Below are positions 4,496 to 32,005 of a stretch of 32,338 nt of DNA, in pieces. Position 1 is the stretch's first letter; every line of letters begins with the position of its first letter. The translations under genes were made by a program, and so were the position numbers. The DNA is from Planctomycetota bacterium (lineage in GTDB: Bacteria > Planctomycetota > Phycisphaerae > WQYP01): positions 1-32,338 of the forward strand of contig JAJZJL010000049.1 of assembly GCA_021810145.1 (NCBI GenBank), in the 5' to 3' direction. Under the pieces are notes generated by a model that was not told the DNA's origin, did not search any database, and worked only from the letters and a program-made list of their open reading frames with translations.

Positions 4496-5770
4496 TCACC
4501 TTTTCCTGTCTCTTTGCCGCGGGTGGACAAATCCCTTCTTAAATCGCCGCTTGGCGCTGTCCCATGCCCCGGCCAACGGCGTGACCGAAGCGAGGATTGT
4601 TGCTCGGGCATATTTAGCGCGGGGACTTTTGTACCAACTGCTGGCACCACCACCCACCCAGCTAAGGAATGGCTCGACCACCCGCCGCTGCGGCGCAGCA
4701 GCGCCAAGGGAGGGCTGCAGCAGGAGCGGCCCTTGCTCCAGGCGCCGTAATGCGGCGGCGAGCGCTGCGGAGCTAACCTTGACCGCCCGGACCCCATCGC
4801 GGGAAAGGCCGGCAGTTTGGGAGAGAAAAGCAGGTTCCGTAGCCTTGCGGACGTTCCGGACCACGAGGTAAAGGGCGCCCTTCGCCGCAAAACCGCCGTT
4901 GCGCTCGTGCGTCACCTCGCCCCACTGATAGGTACCCACTCCGCACCTGCCTCTTCCGCTACGCGGCGGGCTCAGCCCAGCCACAAACCACTCGGTTTGA
5001 TCCGGCCTCCCCGTTTCCCCCAACCCGACGATAAAGCGCCGGAAGGCATGGTAGCCAAGCTCGGTAGAACCTTGGCAGCCAAGGAGCGTCAGTTCGCGAG
5101 GACCCACAAATCTGAATATCGTTTTTCGCACGACCTTGTTGTAACCGAACCGAATCACGAATCTCTTTTTCCGTTTTTCTTGCACCAAATACGAGTGATA
5201 ATAGGCCCCGCCACCCGGGGTCCAAAGGACCGGGTGCTTTCCACCGACTATTGGAAGGAGGGCTGTCAGATGGCTGCTCCCGGTGGAGCAGAAATAGAGC
5301 AAGCCGCGGCCAGAAAGGTCGAGTAGCATCATAAAACGGGGACCATCCCGATAGGTAATGAAGGAAACAAAACTCAGTCTTTCGTCGGTGCGTCCGGCCG
5401 CCTTTGAGCCAACGTGTGTTACTGCGGGGCAGGCATAGAACCAGCCTTGTACCGAAAAATTCCTCGGCCCGGTTGAGCTCGGAAACTGGTAACTCGTCCC
5501 GGAGGTATTGCCACTAAGCAGACCCAATAGTACATATCGGAACTCTGATGGGATGCCCGCAGCCTGCGTGTGCCCTCCCCAAGCTTGGGACAGATAGTTC
5601 ATCCAATGCCCTGGGGAAAATGCAAGCGGTTCCATTTCCGATGGTTGGCGTTTATCGGTGCCTGCAGCACCGTACGTGGAACCCAAACGGGGCAGTAAAA
5701 GACACGCCAGAATAGCGGTCACGGCCAGCGCGGCCACGGTATTGGTGGCAAACCTCATCTTATTCAACAT
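4496..5770 (-). CDS. Exported protein of unknown function (paralogue 2, RHS-tip cassette)
   Basis: A 424-residue protein with an N-terminal hydrophobic segment (about residues 11-28), so probably exported or membrane-anchored. I do not recognise the family. It is clearly a paralogue of the protein at 6881-8299: shared landmarks are GPRNFSVQGW near residue 101, RGLLYFCSTG and VLWTPGGGA near 155-188, YHAFRRFIVGL in the middle, and PFLSWVGGGA followed by a basic tail near the end. The alternating hydrophobic pattern of the first shared block recalls a LamG/concanavalin-like jelly roll, but this is only a guess. The start has GAGGA about 8 nt upstream. It lies 44 nt downstream of the RHS tip gene at 5815-6573, and the same pairing recurs in the second cassette, so the two genes are probably linked in function. 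Confidence 0.7.
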   Translation of the reverse strand: MLNKMRFATNTVAALAVTAILACLLLPRLGSTYGAAGTDKRQPSEMEPLAFSPGHWMNYLSQAWGGHTQAAGIPSEFRYVLLGLLSGNTSGTSYQFPSSTGPRNFSVQGWFYACPAVTHVGSKAAGRTDERLSFVSFITYRDGPRFMMLLDLSGRGLLYFCSTGSSHLTALLPIVGGKHPVLWTPGGGAYYHSYLVQEKRKKRFVIRFGYNKVVRKTIFRFVGPRELTLLGCQGSTELGYHAFRRFIVGLGETGRPDQTEWFVAGLSPPRSGRGRCGVGTYQWGEVTHERNGGFAAKGALYLVVRNVRKATEPAFLSQTAGLSRDGVRAVKVSSAALAAALRRLEQGPLLLQPSLGAAAPQRRVVEPFLSWVGGGASSWYKSPRAKYARATILASVTPLAGAWDSAKRRFKKGFVHPRQRDRKR

Positions 5771-5814
5771 CGCACATCCTCATAAAATAGGCTCGGCCAC
5801 CTCATCGGCAGAAG

Positions 5815-6573
5815 TTAAAGGCCAAAGGTCCCGGTGACCATGTAGTTTTGCCCACCCGGCCCTGGCTGGACCGTTACTCCAATCGAGTCGCTCTTCCCGA
5901 CGCTCAGCTGAGCCCCGCCGGAGTATTGTTGGATTAACGGATTGTAGGTGGCAAAAAACTTCACCAGCGGACCCTGCCCAACGGGGAAGCTGACCTGGCA
6001 CTTGACTTGCACCCCGCCATTTGGCGATTTGGGATTCTTCGTGATCTTGCCCGAGCCGGTAGCAGTAACACCAACGCTTACGGAAGATCCCCCACCCGTA
6101 TTAACCTTGGCGGTCCGGGTCACGCTGCCGGTGTAGTTTCCGCCGGTGCTGGCTGTCCCGGTGGCTCCGACGCTGACAGTGGTTCCCGGTATTCCAGTCG
6201 GGATCGGACCGGATTTTCCGGTAGCCGTTACACTCCCCGAGCCCGGCGCGCTACCCGGGGCGGTCGCGGGCACGCCCTTTCCAATAACGCCCCCTGCAAG
6301 CCCCCACGGATCCACATTCCCCACCGGATTGCTCATCACAAACTGGTACGTGTTGGCACCGTTGATGTTGAGCGGGAGCGAGCGATGCTCGATGCACTTA
6401 CGCTCCTCATCAGCCCCGCGAAATCCCGTGCCGACACCTCGGCTGAGCGCCGCAGCGCCGGGGTTGAGTGGGAGCGAGCGCAGCTCGCCGCAGTTATGCT
6501 CCGCATCGCCCCCGCATAATCCCGTGCCGCGGGGCTTGAATTCCGAAATTGCTTCAGCTATTGCGACCATCAT
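5815..6573 (-). CDS. Orphan RHS C-terminal end with unique tip (cassette 2)
   Basis: A 252-residue frame. Residues about 5-70 come from a 96-bp in-frame repeat. Then NTYQFVMSNPVGNVDPWGL marks the end of an RHS-repeat core, followed by a Gly/Thr/Ser-rich linker of about 100 residues ending VQVKCQV. The last 58 residues are unique (SFPVGQGPLVKFFATYNP... to GTFGL) and look like amphipathic beta strands; no nuclease or other toxin motif is visible. A full RHS protein would have a core of many hundred residues, so this is a detached end, either a displaced tip or a relic. TGA stands directly before the ATG pair and no good ribosome-binding site is visible, so expression as drawn is uncertain. Core remnant and linker are nearly identical in DNA to those at 8357-9211; only the tips differ. 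Confidence 0.6.
   Translation of the reverse strand: MMVAIAEAISEFKPRGTGLCGGDAEHNCGELRSLPLNPGAAALSRGVGTGFRGADEERKCIEHRSLPLNINGANTYQFVMSNPVGNVDPWGLAGGVIGKGVPATAPGSAPGSGSVTATGKSGPIPTGIPGTTVSVGATGTASTGGNYTGSVTRTAKVNTGGGSSVSVGVTATGSGKITKNPKSPNGGVQVKCQVSFPVGQGPLVKFFATYNPLIQQYSGGAQLSVGKSDSIGVTVQPGPGGQNYMVTGTFGL
6367..6540 (-). repeat. 96-bp in-frame tandem repeat (about 1.8 units)
   Basis: Units begin GTTGAG at 6367 and 6463 on the plus strand (spacing 96). They match the 99-bp units at 8903-9170 apart from a 3-nt deletion, which keeps the reading frame. The encoded repeat contains RSLPLN and, between units, PGAAALSR. Confidence 0.75.
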
Positions 6574-6880
6574 TCACACTCGAAAGATGCCAACTTGCTT
6601 GGTGGTTGAATTCTAACCCGTCTCCCCGGCAATAGAAAGCGGGTGAGCAGCGCGACGAGATCGCACACCGCGCCACAAGCACCGATTTTTCACCACAATG
6701 GCACGAAGCCACAAAGCGACCGAGAGGTTGGAACATCCCGATCACGGTTGGCTCACAACGGTCACCGGGATCAACGTTGGAAACGGAGGTACGCTGGGGA
6801 CGGATGCGCTGCGGGCAAACAATGACGCGAGCACCCAGGCCGCAGGGCGGCAAGTAGTTTGCTTGCCGGGCCGCCATGGC
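6574..6880. other. Intergenic region upstream of cassette 2
   Basis: No gene is seen. The first 110 bp (6574-6690) closely match 9212-9330, so the duplication of the two RHS cassettes extends past the start of the RHS fragment. The remainder is GC-rich without recognisable signals. Confidence 0.55.
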
Positions 6881-8299
6881 TCAGCGAACCGCGGGCGGGA
6901 TGAAGGTAAAGCCTTTTCGCAACCGTTGCTTGGCGGCATTCCACGCCTTGGCGAACGCTGCCATGGAAGCCAGCGTTGTGACACGGACGTACTTTGTGTT
7001 GGAACTCCGGTACCACCTTGCTACGGCGCTGCCGCCAACCCACCGCAAAAACGGCGGTATTACCCCGGCACGGTGCCCTGTCGAACTTTGCGGTTGGTTT
7101 TTTAGTTGTGCAACAACCATTGCGAGGCTCATTTTACGACCGTTTATCTTGATCAGTCGGCCACCGATCGACCCCAGCCCGATGGGTGAAGTGCGGAAGT
7201 AGGCCATATCTCGTTTAACCGGCGTCTGACGCAGGATAATGGCGTCCATCCCCGCGATTCCCCGGCCACGCGACGAGACTCCGCCATATTGGAGGGCCGC
7301 AATTTCCAGAGGCAACTTCACGCCCTGAGCCGGCGGTTGGTTGAACCGGGCCACAACCCAGGAGCAGCGGTGTGCCCCGCATCGCGTACCCGCCAAAAAA
7401 TTTCGGAAGGCGTTGTAATCCATCACGTTACAACGCCCAGCGGCGCTGGTGAGCATCGCACCCTCGTCAACTCTGCAATTCATAGCAGGGGGCCTCCCGG
7501 AATAGCCTACCCCCTCCTCGAGCTCGCCGCCGTGGGGGGTGGATCGTGCCACCATCACCAGGCGAGCTCCTCCCTCGTCCGTCCAGAGAATTGGCCCGCC
7601 CCCGAGCAGCGGAACGAGCACCGCCAATTTTCTGTTCCCCGCCGCGCAGAAGTAGAGCATCCCCCGATTGTACAAGTTGACCAGCATTACGAAGCGGTTT
7701 CCGCTCCGCCGGGCGAAGAAAGTTGTAGCTCTGTTGGAAAAAATTCCGGGCCGATCAGCATGTTTGCCACCTTTTCCCCCCTGTGCCATATGCTCAAGGG
7801 GCCCGAAGTGCATGTAGATCCAACCTTCCACCTGAAAATCCTTCGGGCCGTTACCGCCAGGAAATTGCAATTTACCAATAGCCCGCCTCGACGCGAGGTA
7901 ATCCACTACACCCCCAAAATTAGCGATAACTGGGGCCGAGCGAGCCGCTGTGCCGGACGTCCGGCGGGGGGGCAATCGGGAACTGGAAGCGGATGCATGC
8001 TCACGCCGCAACTTGCCGGTTTCGGAGTGAGAGGGAGAAGTTGTCGGCTGAACCGGAGCGCTGCGGGCCAATGCACCGCCGGCCAAGAACACGCTGGCGA
8101 ACAAGACGGCCAGTGAGTTTCTGTTTTTGGCGGAGCCCAGGCTAACCCTTGACCGTCTGGGCCTGCTGATCGCAGGGCAAACTTCCAGCCAGCGGAGCGT
8201 CGATTTCAGGCGATCGCCCAGCAACAAACGTCGTGGAAGCGGGGGAAGTGGCCCTCGCCGATCCGGCAGACATTGTTTTTTATCGCCTCCAAGCCTCAT
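6881..8299 (-). CDS. Exported protein of unknown function (paralogue 1, RHS-tip cassette)
   Basis: A 472-residue protein, paralogous to the one at 4496-5770 (GPKDFQVEGWIYM, RGMLYFCAAG, PILWTDEGGA, MDYNAFRNFLAG, PFLRWVGGSA, then a basic tail KQRLRKGF). It is much more diverged from its partner than the neighbouring RHS linkers are from each other. A hydrophobic segment (NSLAVLFASVFLAGGALA) comes only after about 60 Arg-rich residues, so it has either an unusually long cytoplasmic N-terminus or a later true start. The ATG at 8299 is preferred because AAAGGTGG precedes it; a GTG at 8308 is in frame. A LamG-like beta-sandwich in the first half is possible but unproven. It sits 57 nt downstream of the RHS tip gene at 8357-9211. 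Confidence 0.65.
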   Translation of the reverse strand: MRLGGDKKQCLPDRRGPLPPLPRRLLLGDRLKSTLRWLEVCPAISRPRRSRVSLGSAKNRNSLAVLFASVFLAGGALARSAPVQPTTSPSHSETGKLRREHASASSSRLPPRRTSGTAARSAPVIANFGGVVDYLASRRAIGKLQFPGGNGPKDFQVEGWIYMHFGPLEHMAQGGKGGKHADRPGIFSNRATTFFARRSGNRFVMLVNLYNRGMLYFCAAGNRKLAVLVPLLGGGPILWTDEGGARLVMVARSTPHGGELEEGVGYSGRPPAMNCRVDEGAMLTSAAGRCNVMDYNAFRNFLAGTRCGAHRCSWVVARFNQPPAQGVKLPLEIAALQYGGVSSRGRGIAGMDAIILRQTPVKRDMAYFRTSPIGLGSIGGRLIKINGRKMSLAMVVAQLKNQPQSSTGHRAGVIPPFLRWVGGSAVARWYRSSNTKYVRVTTLASMAAFAKAWNAAKQRLRKGFTFIPPAVR

Positions 8300-8356
8300 A
8301 AAATCCACCTTTCTTACCGTTCCCGCGTTCCCGCCTGGTTTCTACACTCTAGACGA

Positions 8357-9211
8357 TTAAAAATGAAACTTCCAAGTGCCCCAGCCGGTCCCACCATTCT
8401 GAGACGAGTAGCTCAAACCGAAGTTGTCATTGGAAGGGCCGATGGTTATCCCCCCCGTCCAATACGGCGGCGTGCTGCTGCCTATGTTATTGTAGCTTCC
8501 AGATGCCGTAATACCCGGCAGCGGTGTGACCTGGCACTTGACTTGCACCCCGCCATTTGGTGATTTGGGATTCTTCGTGATCTTGCCCGAGCCGGTAGCA
8601 GTAACACCAACGCTTACGGAAGATCCCCCACCCGTATTAACCTTGGCGGTCCCGGTCACGCTGCCGGTGTAGTTTCCGCCGGTGCTGGCTGTCCCGGTCG
8701 CTCCGACGCTGACAGTGGTTCCCGGTATTCCAGTCGGGATCGGACCGGATTTTCCGGTAGCCGTTACACTCCCCGAGCCCGGCGCGCTACCCGGGGCGGT
8801 CGCGGGCACGCCCTTTCCAATAACGCCCCCTGCAAGCCCCCACGGATCCACATTCCCCACCGGATTGCTCATCACAAACTGGTACGTGTTGGCACCGTTG
8901 ATGTTGAGCGGGAGCGATCGCAGCTCGCCGCAGATATGCTCCGCATCAGCCCCGCGAAATACCGTGCCGCGCCCAGCGCGGCTGAGCGCCGCAGCGCCGG
9001 GGTTGAGCGGGAGCGAGCGATGCTCGATGCACTTACGCTCCTCATCGACCCCGCGAAATCCCGTGCCGCGCCCAGCGCGGCTGAGCGCCGCAGCGCCGGG
9101 GTTGAGTGGGAGCGATCGCAGCTCGCCGCAGTTATGCTCCGCATCGCCCCCGCATAATCCCGTGCCGCCGTGCTTGGATTCCGAAGTTGTTTCAACTATT
9201 GCGACCATCAT
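8357..9211 (-). CDS. Orphan RHS C-terminal end with unique tip (cassette 1)
   Basis: A 284-residue frame built like the one at 5815-6573: about three 33-residue repeats (99 bp each), the RHS core terminus NTYQFVMSNPVGNVDPWGL, an almost identical Gly/Thr/Ser-rich linker to VQVKCQV, then a different tip of 56 residues (TPLPGITASGSYNNIG... to TWKFHF). The tip is Gly/Ser/Asn/Tyr-rich, looks beta-structured and ends in aromatic residues; no catalytic toxin motif is visible. In RHS polymorphic toxins a conserved core and linker followed by an exchangeable tip with its own downstream gene is the usual layout. Here most of the core is missing, and the partner gene encodes a large exported protein rather than a small cytosolic immunity protein. 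A TGA directly before the ATG pair closes the frame upstream. Confidence 0.6.
   Translation of the reverse strand: MMVAIVETTSESKHGGTGLCGGDAEHNCGELRSLPLNPGAAALSRAGRGTGFRGVDEERKCIEHRSLPLNPGAAALSRAGRGTVFRGADAEHICGELRSLPLNINGANTYQFVMSNPVGNVDPWGLAGGVIGKGVPATAPGSAPGSGSVTATGKSGPIPTGIPGTTVSVGATGTASTGGNYTGSVTGTAKVNTGGGSSVSVGVTATGSGKITKNPKSPNGGVQVKCQVTPLPGITASGSYNNIGSSTPPYWTGGITIGPSNDNFGLSYSSQNGGTGWGTWKFHF
8903..9170 (-). repeat. 99-bp in-frame tandem repeat (about 2.7 units)
   Basis: Units start with GTTGAG at 8903, 9002 and 9101 on the plus strand, an exact 99-bp spacing. Two unit variants alternate (one with GCAGCTCGCCGCAG, one with ATGCTCGATGCACTTACG). Unit number differs from the copy at 6367-6540, as expected for slippage or recombination. 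Confidence 0.8.
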
Positions 9212-9350
9212 TCACGCCCGAAAGATGCCAACTTGCTTGGTGCGTGAATTCTAACCCGTCGCACCGGTAATAGAAAGCGATCTCGGATCGCGGCGGAAAC
9301 GCACACCGCGCAACAAGCACCGATTTTTCACCATAAAGGCATGGAAACGG

Positions 9351-9448
9351 TATTGGTCAGTATTGGCAGTATGGCCAGTATTTGTCAGTATTTACAGTAT
9401 TGGTCAGTATTAGCAGTATTAGTCAGTATTGGTCAGGATATTCAGTAA
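9351..9448. repeat. CAGTATTGGT-type tandem array 1
   Basis: About ten imperfect units of 9-10 nt with consensus CAGTATTGGT or CAGTATTAG. There are no spacers of uniform length, so this is not a CRISPR array. Confidence 0.8.
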
Positions 9449-9527
9449 GCATCGTTGCTTGGAATCCTCCGTCCACCTCCGCTTCCTCCTTGTGAATAAA
9501 AGCGTCTTTAACCACAACGGCACGAGG

Positions 9528-9606
9528 ACAGTATGGGTCGGTATCGATCAGTATTAGCAGTATTGGTCAGTATTTACAGTATTGGCCAGTGTATTCAGTA
9601 TATTCA
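9528..9606. repeat. CAGTATTGGT-type tandem array 2
   Basis: Second array of the same 9-10-nt unit, ending in TATTCAGTATATTCAG. Confidence 0.8.
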
Positions 9607-9714
9607 GAACGTGCCCCGGGAGCTGGGATTACTGATCATTGATCATTGGTCATTGAGGTGCCCTCCGCTTCCTCCTTGTGAACAAAAACGTTTTTCACCA
9701 CAGCGATGCGATTA

Positions 9715-9779
9715 CAGTGATTGGTCAGTGTTTTCAGTATTAGTCAGTATTAGCAGTATTGGTCAGTATATTCAGTACC
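9715..9779. repeat. CAGTATTGGT-type tandem array 3
   Basis: Third array of the same unit, about six imperfect copies, again ending with TATATTCAGTA. Confidence 0.8.
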
Positions 9780-28044: not shown

Positions 28045-28893
28045 ATGCCTTGGACTTCGGAACACATTAAATGGCTGGTCGACACCGGCGAACGACTGAA
28101 GACCGCCGACGGCAAGGAGGTTGAGGTCTGGGAGTTCCGTCATTTGAAGGACGAGGCAGTGCTTTCGGCCTGGGCGAAACACTTCCGGAATCACTACTGT
28201 CTGGATACAGATATCGATTTCCTTCGGGGCGCACTTCCGCGACCGGATTATCTGACCAATATCAAGTTCCCTTGCAGCACATCCAAACTCGGCCGGGGAA
28301 TCAGAGCAGGAGATTTTGGGGAAATTCTGGTTTCCGATTACCTGCAATGGTGTCTCGGTTACTGGGTACCCAGGGTACGGTGGTCATCAAAGAGTGTTCG
28401 GGATGAATCGCCCAGGGGCAGCGATGTCATTGGATTCCAGTTTCATAAACAAAACGGCGAAGCCTCCACAGAGGACGTGTTGTTTGCCTTTGAATCCAAG
28501 ACAAAATTCTCCGCCTCTAAAATCAACCGCCTGCAAGATGCCATCAACGATTCCGCCAAGGATCACATTCGAATCGATGAATCGCTGAACTTCATCAAGC
28601 AAAAGCTCTTTGAGAAAAGGGAAATCGATCAGGCTCAAAGGATCGAGAGATTTCAAAGCCCTGTAGATAGGCCCTACAAGGAAACCTACGGCGCTGCGGC
28701 CATCATTTCAGAAGAATGTTTCGACGCCGAAGAATTGGCTTCGGCAGACTGCGGGAAAATTCCCAAGTCAGCAAAATCTAAGGAGGTCTTTCCTCATCCT
28801 AAGGGCGACAGCCTTGTCCTCTTGGTTATCAAGGGACTCGACATGATGAAACTTGTCCACGAGCTCTACAGGAGGGCTGCGGATGAGGCCTGA
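28045..28893 (+). CDS. hamA: Hachiman defence nuclease HamA (DUF1837)
   Basis: A 282-residue DUF1837 protein, the effector of the Hachiman anti-phage system. Published work on HamA describes a PD-(D/E)xK-type nuclease held in check by the HamB helicase and released on DNA damage. Here the candidate active site is E93 (in RAGDFGEILVSDYL), D127 (in RGSDVIGF) and E150-x-K152 (in FAFESKTK), so it appears catalytically intact. The C-terminal part (about 215-280) has GAAAIISEE and LVLLVIKGLDMMKLVHELYRRA, probably contacting HamB. The start has AGGA/GGGA just upstream. Its end overlaps hamB by 11 nt, implying translational coupling. Decayed toxin-like genes precede it and an IS630 transposase follows hamB. 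Confidence 0.9.
   Translation: MPWTSEHIKWLVDTGERLKTADGKEVEVWEFRHLKDEAVLSAWAKHFRNHYCLDTDIDFLRGALPRPDYLTNIKFPCSTSKLGRGIRAGDFGEILVSDYLQWCLGYWVPRVRWSSKSVRDESPRGSDVIGFQFHKQNGEASTEDVLFAFESKTKFSASKINRLQDAINDSAKDHIRIDESLNFIKQKLFEKREIDQAQRIERFQSPVDRPYKETYGAAAIISEECFDAEELASADCGKIPKSAKSKEVFPHPKGDSLVLLVIKGLDMMKLVHELYRRAADEA
28870..28875 (+). promoter_or_regulatory. Ribosome-binding site fixing the hamB start
   Basis: AGGAGG inside the last codons of hamA, 7 nt before ATG 28883. A TTG start at 28853 gives a longer frame but has no such site. Confidence 0.75.
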
Positions 28894-31800
28894 TAGAAAA
28901 TCCAATCGTCTTTTGGGTGTTACTCGATCAAAAGCAAAGATGATCGAGTACAATGTACCTGAAGAATATCAGGGGATAGATTTATCACTACATCCAAATA
29001 AGCTCTTCACCGTCTCGATTGGCCTGCTGGGTGACCTCGCCGCTGCAATCAACCGGGAGGAGTCAGATCGCGACCCCCTCCCGGAGCTGAAAACCAATCT
29101 GCTATTTTCCGCCCGCTTTTTCGACTCCTATCTCCAGTCAAAGCTGAACGAGACACTTGATCCATACCTCGTGCTTCTGGGCTCTGCTTCCTATTACCTG
29201 TGCGATCTGCCTGGGAGCTCATCGGTATTGGCGAAGCGCATCGATGGCGACTGCCCGGACCTAGATGGCGATGGTTTGGAGGACCTGTTGCTCTGGTTGC
29301 TGCAGGCCGATCTGGGACCCTATTCTGGTGGAGCTGAGGGGCCGTTCGGCGGATTAATCGACGGGATTTCAAAGTGGATTCTCCAGTTTTTTGAGGATGG
29401 GAGCGGCGAAGAAAATCTTCTCGATTTGACCACGAAGCTGCGGGACGCCGTCTATGAGTTCGGCACACCCAGGCAACTTCTGTTTGGTGATGTGATCGCG
29501 GCCGTTCTGAGGAAAAAGTTGGAGAATTCCGCCTGGAAGGCGTTACCATCATATTCCGGGCTGCCCCGCGGCAAATGGCTCCATGCGCTGCAAAAGGATT
29601 CGTTCATCAAGGAACTTTGGCCTGCGCAACACCTTTTGGGCCAAGCGGATGTTCTCAAAGGCGAGTCTGCCATCGTTCAGATGCCCACCAGCGCTGGCAA
29701 AACGAAGGCAACGGAGCTGATCCTTCGAAGCGCGTTCCTGGCTGGGCGCGTATCACTGGCCCTCATCATCGCCCCGTTCCGGGCGCTGTGCCGTGAGATC
29801 AAGGACAGCCTCGCCGAGGCCTTCCACAACGAAACCACCAAGGTGGATGAATTGTCCGATGCCCTACAGACCGACTTCGAGGTTGCCGAACTTCTGGGGC
29901 ACCAACAGATCCTGGTCGTAACCCCCGAGAAACTGCTCTACGTCCTTCGGCACGCTCCGGAACTGGCCGCCCAGGTTGGCCTGTTGGTTTTTGATGAAGG
30001 CCACCAGTTCGACAGCGGCACCCGAGGCATCACATACGAACTGCTTCTGACGTCACTACGCTCCATGATTCCCAAAGGAACCCAGAAGGTGCTGATCTCA
30101 GCGGTCATCAGCAACGCCGAGGCTGTCGGAGAATGGCTGAACGGGAACCCCAATGTCGTCGAAGGCACAACCCTGATTCCGACTTTCAGATCGGTCGGAT
30201 TTGCGAGCTGGCCCGATCAGTTGGGAAAGATCGAGTACGTCGACAGCCGTGACGCCGAACAAAGTGAGTTTTTCGTTCCGAGGGTGATCGAAAGGTCCAA
30301 ACTCGGAAGGAAGGGGCGGGAAAGGACGGATCGCTTTTTCCCTGAAAAAACGGACGGGCAGGCTATCGCACTTTACCTCGGTCTGAAATTGGTCCCGAAT
30401 GGCAGCATCGCTGTTTTCTGCGGGCGGAAGTCGACAGCGGCCAGCGTCTGTGAAAAGGCCGTCGATATTATCGAGCGAGATGCAAAGCTGGCCTTGCCGT
30501 CAAATTTTTCAGACGCCCAGGAAGTTGCGAGGCTAGCACATCTGCATACCGAGAATCTCGGCGATGGCGCTCCGGCGTCCCAGAGCGCGGCACACGGCAT
30601 TTTTTCCCATCATGGCAATACGCCTCATGGTATTCGGCTGGCGGTGGAGCATGCCATGCGTGACGGCCTTGTGCGATTCGTGGTTTGTACCTCGACTTTG
30701 GCGCAGGGCGTAAACCTTCCGATTCGATACCTCATCGTTACCAGTGTCTACCAGGGCCTGGAACGCATCAAGGTTCGAGATTTCCATAACCTCATCGGCC
30801 GAGCGGGCCGAGCCGGGATGCATACCGAAGGCAGCATCCTGTTTGCCGATCCGGTGATCTTTGACAACCGGAAGGCCCGTAACGGCAAATGGCGCTGGGA
30901 CCAGGTGAAAGAGCTTTTGGAACCGCGCAATTCTGAGCCATGCATCAGCAATCTTCTTTCGATCTTCGACCCCATCAGGAGCGATGACGAGAAAGATACC
31001 GTCACTATGGAGGCACTGGATTTTGCCAGGGTCTATATCGACGGTCCTGACGAAGTGGCCAAGCTGGCTGCGGGGATAGCCGCACGACATGGAGACAAAA
31101 AATTCTCCCGAGACGGTGTCGAGCGGCAAATCGCTTGGAGAGTCAGCCTAATCTGTGCAATCGAGAGCTTCCTGCTATCTCATTGGGATGAATCTGAAAA
31201 TGGTCTTTCGGAAGCGGATGTGGCCCGCCTGGCCGAAGGGACGCTGGCTTTCTTCCTGACTGATGATCAGAAAAAGGAGCATATCCGCGAGTTGTTTCAG
31301 CTTCTCGCTGGGAACATCTCTGCAAACATCACAGATCCGGCTCGCCGTAAAATCTATGGCCGGACGCTTTACGGCATTCAAGATGCCCAAGCCATTGAGG
31401 GATGGGTCCAAACCAATGCCGACAGTCTGCTTACGATTGTTGATGAAACAGACGCGCTCGATCTTGCCTGGCCATTGCTTACCCGGCATATCAACAGTGG
31501 CGTATTCAGCAAGTTCGATAAGCCGGAGGTGCTAAGGGAAACCGCCCATGGGTGGATCAGTGGAATGCCCTTCAGTGATCTCCTGAAAATCATCCGTAAG
31601 CGAAAAGCCAAGATGATATGGGGCACCCGCCGGAGGGAGTTCAAAATCGATCACGTCGTCGACCTCTGCGAAGGGACGCTGGCTTATGACGGAGCGCTCG
31701 TTGTAGGCGCTGTGTGCGAATTCATCGAAACCCTGGACCGAGATGACACTGGAGACCTGATCAATCACCTGCAGCTTTTTCAAAAGCGCCTGAAATATGG

Positions 31801-32005
31801 TCTGCCGACCAAAACCACCATTGCCCTTTACGAGCTTGGCTTTTCGGACCGCGTCATTGCTCAGGATATTGCCACATCCTTGAACCTGGATGCGACCCAG
31901 AAGAAGGATCTCGTGAAGGCGCTGAAAAAAGACCGGGACGGAGCCAGGGCGGTAATGGAGAAATACCCAAGCTATTTCCGGGAGAGGATGAATGAACTCC
32001 TGTAG
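28883..32005 (+). CDS. hamB: Hachiman defence helicase HamB
   Basis: A 1040-residue superfamily 2 helicase, partner of HamA. An N-terminal domain of about 240 residues precedes the motor. Walker A is MPTSAGKT (267-274), motif II DEGH (371-374), motif III lies in LISAVISN, and motif VI is NLIGRAGRAG (636-645), the pattern of Ski2-like helicases. The C-terminal 350 residues are mostly helical and end DGARAVMEKYPSYFRERMNELL. In studied Hachiman systems HamB monitors DNA and releases HamA nuclease when the genome is damaged; by homology this pair should do the same. Motifs look intact and the length is in the family's range. The start is at the AGGAGG-preceded ATG overlapping hamA. Confidence 0.9.
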   Translation: MRPDRKSNRLLGVTRSKAKMIEYNVPEEYQGIDLSLHPNKLFTVSIGLLGDLAAAINREESDRDPLPELKTNLLFSARFFDSYLQSKLNETLDPYLVLLGSASYYLCDLPGSSSVLAKRIDGDCPDLDGDGLEDLLLWLLQADLGPYSGGAEGPFGGLIDGISKWILQFFEDGSGEENLLDLTTKLRDAVYEFGTPRQLLFGDVIAAVLRKKLENSAWKALPSYSGLPRGKWLHALQKDSFIKELWPAQHLLGQADVLKGESAIVQMPTSAGKTKATELILRSAFLAGRVSLALIIAPFRALCREIKDSLAEAFHNETTKVDELSDALQTDFEVAELLGHQQILVVTPEKLLYVLRHAPELAAQVGLLVFDEGHQFDSGTRGITYELLLTSLRSMIPKGTQKVLISAVISNAEAVGEWLNGNPNVVEGTTLIPTFRSVGFASWPDQLGKIEYVDSRDAEQSEFFVPRVIERSKLGRKGRERTDRFFPEKTDGQAIALYLGLKLVPNGSIAVFCGRKSTAASVCEKAVDIIERDAKLALPSNFSDAQEVARLAHLHTENLGDGAPASQSAAHGIFSHHGNTPHGIRLAVEHAMRDGLVRFVVCTSTLAQGVNLPIRYLIVTSVYQGLERIKVRDFHNLIGRAGRAGMHTEGSILFADPVIFDNRKARNGKWRWDQVKELLEPRNSEPCISNLLSIFDPIRSDDEKDTVTMEALDFARVYIDGPDEVAKLAAGIAARHGDKKFSRDGVERQIAWRVSLICAIESFLLSHWDESENGLSEADVARLAEGTLAFFLTDDQKKEHIRELFQLLAGNISANITDPARRKIYGRTLYGIQDAQAIEGWVQTNADSLLTIVDETDALDLAWPLLTRHINSGVFSKFDKPEVLRETAHGWISGMPFSDLLKIIRKRKAKMIWGTRRREFKIDHVVDLCEGTLAYDGALVVGAVCEFIETLDRDDTGDLINHLQLFQKRLKYGLPTKTTIALYELGFSDRVIAQDIATSLNLDATQKKDLVKALKKDRDGARAVMEKYPSYFRERMNELL

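Follow-up and report, generated by a model that had tools for sequence, protein, structure and literature searches.

Tandem RHS C-terminal ends with large, predicted exported partners: a candidate lineage-restricted variant of RHS toxin-immunity cassettes in Planctomycetota

Two tandem cassettes and their RHS ends

The window analyzed here, a 32,338-nt stretch of DNA from a Planctomycetota bacterium (contig JAJZJL010000049.1; G000:C57 in our numbering), carries on its minus strand two tandem cassettes in the gene order T2-E2-T1-E1, each consisting of an orphan RHS C-terminal end (T) and a gene for a predicted exported protein (E) (Table 1). An earlier note, made from the sequence alone, had described this arrangement, and all four open reading frames were found at the coordinates it gave. 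The spacing it had reported, 44–57 nt, was also recovered: T1 and E1 are separated by 44 nt, and T2 and E2 by 48 or 57 nt depending on which E2 start is used, the ATG at 8299 having a better-placed ribosome site than the GTG at 8308. Upstream of T2, positions 9350–9777 hold AT-rich short tandem repeats with 10- and 19-nt units containing CAGTATT, and a Hachiman defense pair is encoded on the plus strand of the window (HamA, 28045–28893, PADLOC E=5e-109; HamB, 28853–32005, E=0).

Table 1. Features of the two cassettes (window coordinates) and sites of a second in-frame element
Feature	Position	Strand	Description
T2, orphan RHS C-terminal end, 284 aa	8357..9211	-	leader MMVAIxE, 2.7 copies of 99-nt repeat, RHS core remnant INGANTYQFVMSNPVGNVDPWG, 159-aa tip
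T2 tip domain	8360..8836	-	glycine-rich, amphipathic beta, ends WKFHF
E2, predicted exported partner, 472 aa from ATG 8299 (475 aa from GTG 8308)	6881..8299	-	hydrophobic N-terminal segment ~63-77
T1, orphan RHS C-terminal end, 252 aa	5815..6573	-	layout as T2, fewer repeats
T1 tip domain	5818..6300	-	residues 1-103 near-identical to T2; last ~58 divergent
E1, predicted exported partner, 424 aa	4496..5770	-	N-terminal signal with lipobox-like ILAC
99-nt (33-codon) in-frame tandem repeat within T2 ORF	8903..9168	-	
99-nt repeat within T1 ORF, 1.7 copies	6367..6531	-	
T2 conserved cassette head	9205..9254	-	GGTTAGAAT box at about -46, then ATGGTCGC start
T1 conserved cassette head	6567..6616	-	GGTTAGAAT box, then ATGGTCGC start
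~55-nt element sites	L017:3716 and 6258; L021:184; L074:3305; L075:2763; L102:6052; L108:223		

A 300-nt block is 99% identical between T1 and T2 (5991–6290 versus 8527–8826) and is followed by abrupt divergence, as where a variable tip has been exchanged onto a constant part. This block had been read as a near-identical RHS linker leading to unrelated tips. The near identity stands, but the block is not a linker: it belongs to a tip domain that also occurs in two other genera (G018, G019). Likewise, the tips are unrelated by BLAST only in their last ~60 residues, and both T1 and T2 fall in a single tip class.

The first 70–100 residues of T1 and T2 are not of RHS origin and comprise a leader followed by the 99-nt in-frame repeats, which have 12 matches in this genome (in the window and on contigs C154, C95, C157 and C35), all inside RHS orphan ends and just before INGANTYQF. 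Because the repeat interrupts the RHS end, T1 and T2 match TIGR03696 only weakly (positions 52–76, E=0.006–0.008, under the curated cut-off). Homologous RHS ends in related genomes score 58–72 bits (cut-off 32.5), so that an RHS-associated core with the motif INGANTYQFVMSNPVGNVDPWG is found at the tip start, weak in T1 and T2 but strong in their homologues.

The leader motif M(V/I)A..E occurs in 50 of 80 orphan ends compared with 15 of 891 other ORFs, and many orphan ends have a GTTA-containing box ~38–49 nt upstream of the start. No export signal was visible in the leader of the orphan ends, and an orphan tip would therefore remain cytosolic unless it becomes attached to a full-length RHS gene, an event described in Salmonella (PMC3967940). 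C35 and C198 of the same genome encode full-length, putatively secreted RHS proteins with roughly 3,200 residues or more, and the fn3 and DUF1349 domains present in a full-length RHS protein encoded in this genome imply that the parent proteins are probably extracellular. A further in-frame element, about 55 nt long (LRQEPKSRLSxGxAxRE), lies at differing sites in RHS genes of several genomes and appears to resemble the Rickettsia protein-coding palindromic elements.

A predicted exported partner superfamily linked to RHS ends

E1 and E2 proved to be divergent paralogues, as had been proposed (33% identity over 333 aa, E=5e-33). Export was judged from hydropathy together with the lipobox pattern: each protein has one N-terminal hydrophobic segment (maximum KD12 of 2.9 for E1 and 2.5 for E2) and no later one, E1 carries the lipobox pattern ILAC with Cys23, and on this basis both are predicted to be exported. 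The members of the superfamily to which they belong also have no TM-like segment after the N-terminal one. Searches of Pfam and NCBIfam gave no match above cut-off for E1, E2 or their homologues, including to the described immunity families (SUKH, Imm, barstar), in agreement with the earlier assessment that the partners fall in no recognized family. The partners were not matched by the PADLOC defense models, their sequence searches against the PDB returned nothing usable, and a single-protein scan of genome contigs with E2 found no relative.

The conserved columns of the partners are mostly aromatic, glycine or proline and not catalytic, as for a binding protein. Structure prediction of single proteins, one of the checks suggested in the earlier note, gave weak models: the AlphaFold model of an A3-type partner (see below) reached a mean pLDDT of 52, with a better center, and that of E1 was unusable (pLDDT 35). 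The top PDB folds retrieved by Foldseek for the A3-type partner were RseB (E=4e-4) and LolB (E=6.5e-4), with TM of only 0.25–0.32 from a model of pLDDT 52, which is only a hint of a LolA/LolB/RseB-like half-barrel periplasmic fold.

The partner superfamily comprises 15 distinct members, E1, E2 and 13 more, all in one Planctomycetota family; identical copies were counted once (C35=G005, C154=G023, C185=G007, L102=G006:C50), and A4-type Sel1 fusions, although related to A3, were left out. In the genome under study, predicted exported proteins come directly after RHS ends on C154, C185 and C35, the last with two, and the relatives recovered by profile search are of A3 type (G002, G006, G024), E type (G018, G010, G019) and C type (L102, C185). 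Thirteen of the 15 members directly follow an RHS end, with gaps of 29–57 nt where the start is clear and of 109 nt in C185, and the order of RHS end and partner is kept in at least three genera (g1, g2 and g4). The two exceptions are a pair in G010, one member of which, with a fused tip-like tail, lies just before the other; that member starts 240 nt from a contig edge with no RHS end visible, and a tip-like remnant lies between the two genes. The C-terminal tail of the G010 partner gene at L066:4911–6209 (FTAGVSTQSHGWHLALTGGYNAQTGLSGFISLSTNRIR) looks like the trace of a deleted tip that once separated two partners.

In a sample of 392 genomes from the phylum, only the genome studied here was matched by the A3 profile; among 397 genomes of the class it matched six, all from one family. 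Searches with the E-type profile covered the class and the family, and the named matches are Planctomycetota/Phycisphaerales metagenome-assembled genomes. Weak A2 matches in G027, G145, G267 and G018:C5 involved genes without RHS ends and with unrelated-looking neighbors and were dismissed as chance; G314 gave a further weak match. Some partner genes are found again in other genomes (L041 versus L017, L168 versus L167, L042 versus L020), a recurrence that, with G023 filed under another genus, could reflect either recent transfer or mis-binned metagenome contigs.

Partner subfamilies correspond to tip classes. E partners occur with T-type tips, C partners with the L102/C185 tip, and A3 partners with proline-rich tips, several of which bear a CPxPP or PHG motif, so that three tip classes map to three partner subfamilies and the downstream gene is matched to the tip type (13 of 15 loci). 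Across 12 pairs, similarity between tips was correlated with similarity between partners (Mantel rho 0.36, p=0.004). In profile comparisons with hhalign, the E and C subfamilies together matched A3 through a common segment of about 110 columns (E=1.3e-5, probability 81%), and A3 matched the Sel1-fused N-domains (E=3e-18, probability 99%); E, C and A3 would form one superfamily, in which the link from E to A3 is made at the profile level only. The RHS linkage, the gene order retained across genera and the prediction of partner subfamily by tip class all favor the suggestion of the earlier note that RHS tips have a partner of a new kind here. The two outcomes it had named as telling against that suggestion, homologues mostly without RHS ends and no conserved order outside the window, did not materialize in the profile search and the analysis of RHS adjacency.

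Paired tips and the genes that follow other RHS ends

Neither T1 and T2 nor 83 of the 84 other tips of the lineage matched any Pfam family, and the tips are thus not recognizable toxins by sequence. Compared with 66 other lineage tips, the 13 tips paired with members of the superfamily are richer in glycine (0.20 versus 0.11) and poorer in charged residues (0.06 versus 0.17), end more often in F or W (9/13 versus 8/66, p=5e-5) and have stronger beta periodicity (p=2e-6), the p-values being optimistic because the contrasts were noticed before testing and related tips were counted separately. This composition and periodicity suggest membrane-active beta-strands. A PDB match of tip profile A6 (6u08, E=0.0012) spans profile positions 63–115 and was assigned to the RHS-core side, not to the tip.

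When 62 other post-RHS genes of the lineage and one RHS-adjoining SUKH gene were compared with Pfam, they yielded Sel1 (7), SUKH (2), barstar, which is the inhibitor of barnase, ankyrin, RraB, DUF3969 and WG repeats. SUKH and ankyrin proteins are listed among immunity proteins (PMC3482391), and Sel1E, a Sel1-repeat protein, is the tested immunity protein of VgrG4 (PMC7108748). An N-terminal hydrophobic segment is present in 44 of 71 post-RHS genes, compared with 57 of 238 other genes from the same loci (p=7e-9). The premise of the earlier note that RHS immunity proteins are small and cytosolic holds for most, all but a few being cytoplasmic in a 2012 survey, but that survey includes secreted, transmembrane and lipoprotein exceptions (PMC3482391), and immunity to the Rhs pore toxin Tse5 is provided by a membrane protein, Tsi5 (PMC9637101).

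A proposed envelope-directed toxin-immunity variant

The explanation we favor, and consider reasonably likely, is that the cassettes are RHS toxin-immunity pairs with large exported immunity proteins and tips that probably act at the envelope. Each cassette would be a stand-alone pair of the RHS polymorphic-toxin type, in which T1 and T2 would be orphans copied from the 3' end of the gene for a giant secreted RHS protein, with a core remnant and a swappable tip, and E1 and E2 the cognate immunity proteins, each with a soluble body behind a signal peptide or lipobox. That E1/E2-type partners are exported immunity proteins of RHS cassettes is the element of which we are most confident, and we regard it as probable. 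Antidotes are usually intracellular and these appear to be exported, which points to a toxin working at the cell envelope; conversely, the immunity proteins would be exported because the tips probably act there. If the partners confer immunity, an action of the tip on the membrane or in the periplasm is somewhat favored. The tip would thus act outside the cytoplasm, most likely through amphipathic beta-strands inserted into the outer or inner membrane, and E1 and E2 would bind it in the periplasm, ahead of membrane insertion; toxicity, neutralization and the membrane target are all inferred. A more specific version is tentative: the tips would behave like small outer-membrane proteins, their amphipathic beta-strands with aromatic ends inserting into the envelope, and a lineage-specific superfamily of large exported proteins would catch these strands in the periplasm in the manner of OMP- or lipoprotein-binding factors.

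The linkage and export evidence would be identical if E1 and E2 were exported immunity proteins but the tips attacked peptidoglycan or another periplasmic target enzymatically, without membrane insertion, and secreted immunity proteins are indeed known for L,D-peptidase toxins (PMC3482391); the glycine-rich, charge-poor, beta-amphipathic character of the tips, with no recognizable enzyme domain, makes this unlikely. More doubtful still is a role for E1 and E2 as accessory factors, either periplasmic chaperones or delivery adaptors for export or display of a beta-rich RHS tip. A dedicated chaperone would also account for one partner subfamily per tip class, and the weak LolB/RseB-like match suits a periplasmic carrier, but the partners are kept behind orphan ends in which no export signal is apparent, known cytosolic immunity families such as SUKH and barstar occur in the same position, and the tandem partner genes and Sel1 fusions look like stacked immunity genes. 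The other possibility raised in the earlier note, a surface-display or adhesion module with borrowed RHS ends, draws on the fn3 and DUF1349 domains of the full-length RHS protein and the probably extracellular nature of the parents. We consider it very improbable, since no adhesion domain was found in E1, E2 or their homologues, no export signal is apparent in the orphan ends, other RHS ends of the lineage are followed by SUKH, barstar, ankyrin, RraB and Sel1 proteins, and variable tips, matched partners and cassette structure fit toxin-immunity pairs better.

Read as toxin-immunity pairs, the cassettes share with described RHS polymorphic-toxin loci a constant RHS end with a swappable 3' tip, an immunity gene directly downstream and the storage of orphan tip-immunity pairs (PMC3482391; orphan Rhs ends, PMC3967940). 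They differ in that the partners are about 330–470 aa and predicted to be exported, the tips have no Pfam toxin match, and the orphan ends often have their own conserved start and leader, whereas the orphan end described previously lacks translation initiation signals (PMC3967940). In Tse5/Tsi5 of Pseudomonas aeruginosa, as proposed for the present cassettes, the Rhs tip acts on the membrane and the immunity protein is non-cytosolic, but Tsi5 is an inner-membrane protein with two TM segments (PMC9637101), and E1 and E2 are large, soluble, predicted exported proteins. CDI ionophore toxins likewise combine membrane-acting tips, an activity proposed for T1 and T2, with highly divergent cognate immunity proteins; these CdiI proteins are two-helix membrane hairpins of 72–100 residues (PMC11630599), and E1 and E2 are about five times larger and predicted to be exported. 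The Imm65 lipoprotein and the secreted L,D-peptidase immunity proteins (PMC3482391) are known exceptions in which immunity is exported or lipid-anchored, but E1, E2 and their homologues fall under all Pfam and NCBIfam cut-offs. As for Sel1E of VgrG4 (PMC7108748), Sel1 proteins follow several RHS ends here, some fused to an A3-like domain, although E1 and E2 have no Sel1 repeats.

The cassette type is therefore known, and what appears to be new is a lineage-restricted variant of RHS toxin-immunity cassettes in which the partners are exported. Most described immunity proteins of polymorphic toxins are cytoplasmic; if our reading is correct, these loci would add to the RHS toxins an envelope-acting branch, with often-exported post-RHS genes and a dedicated superfamily tied to glycine-rich beta tips, for which the 13 tip-partner pairs provide a defined set for tests of specificity.
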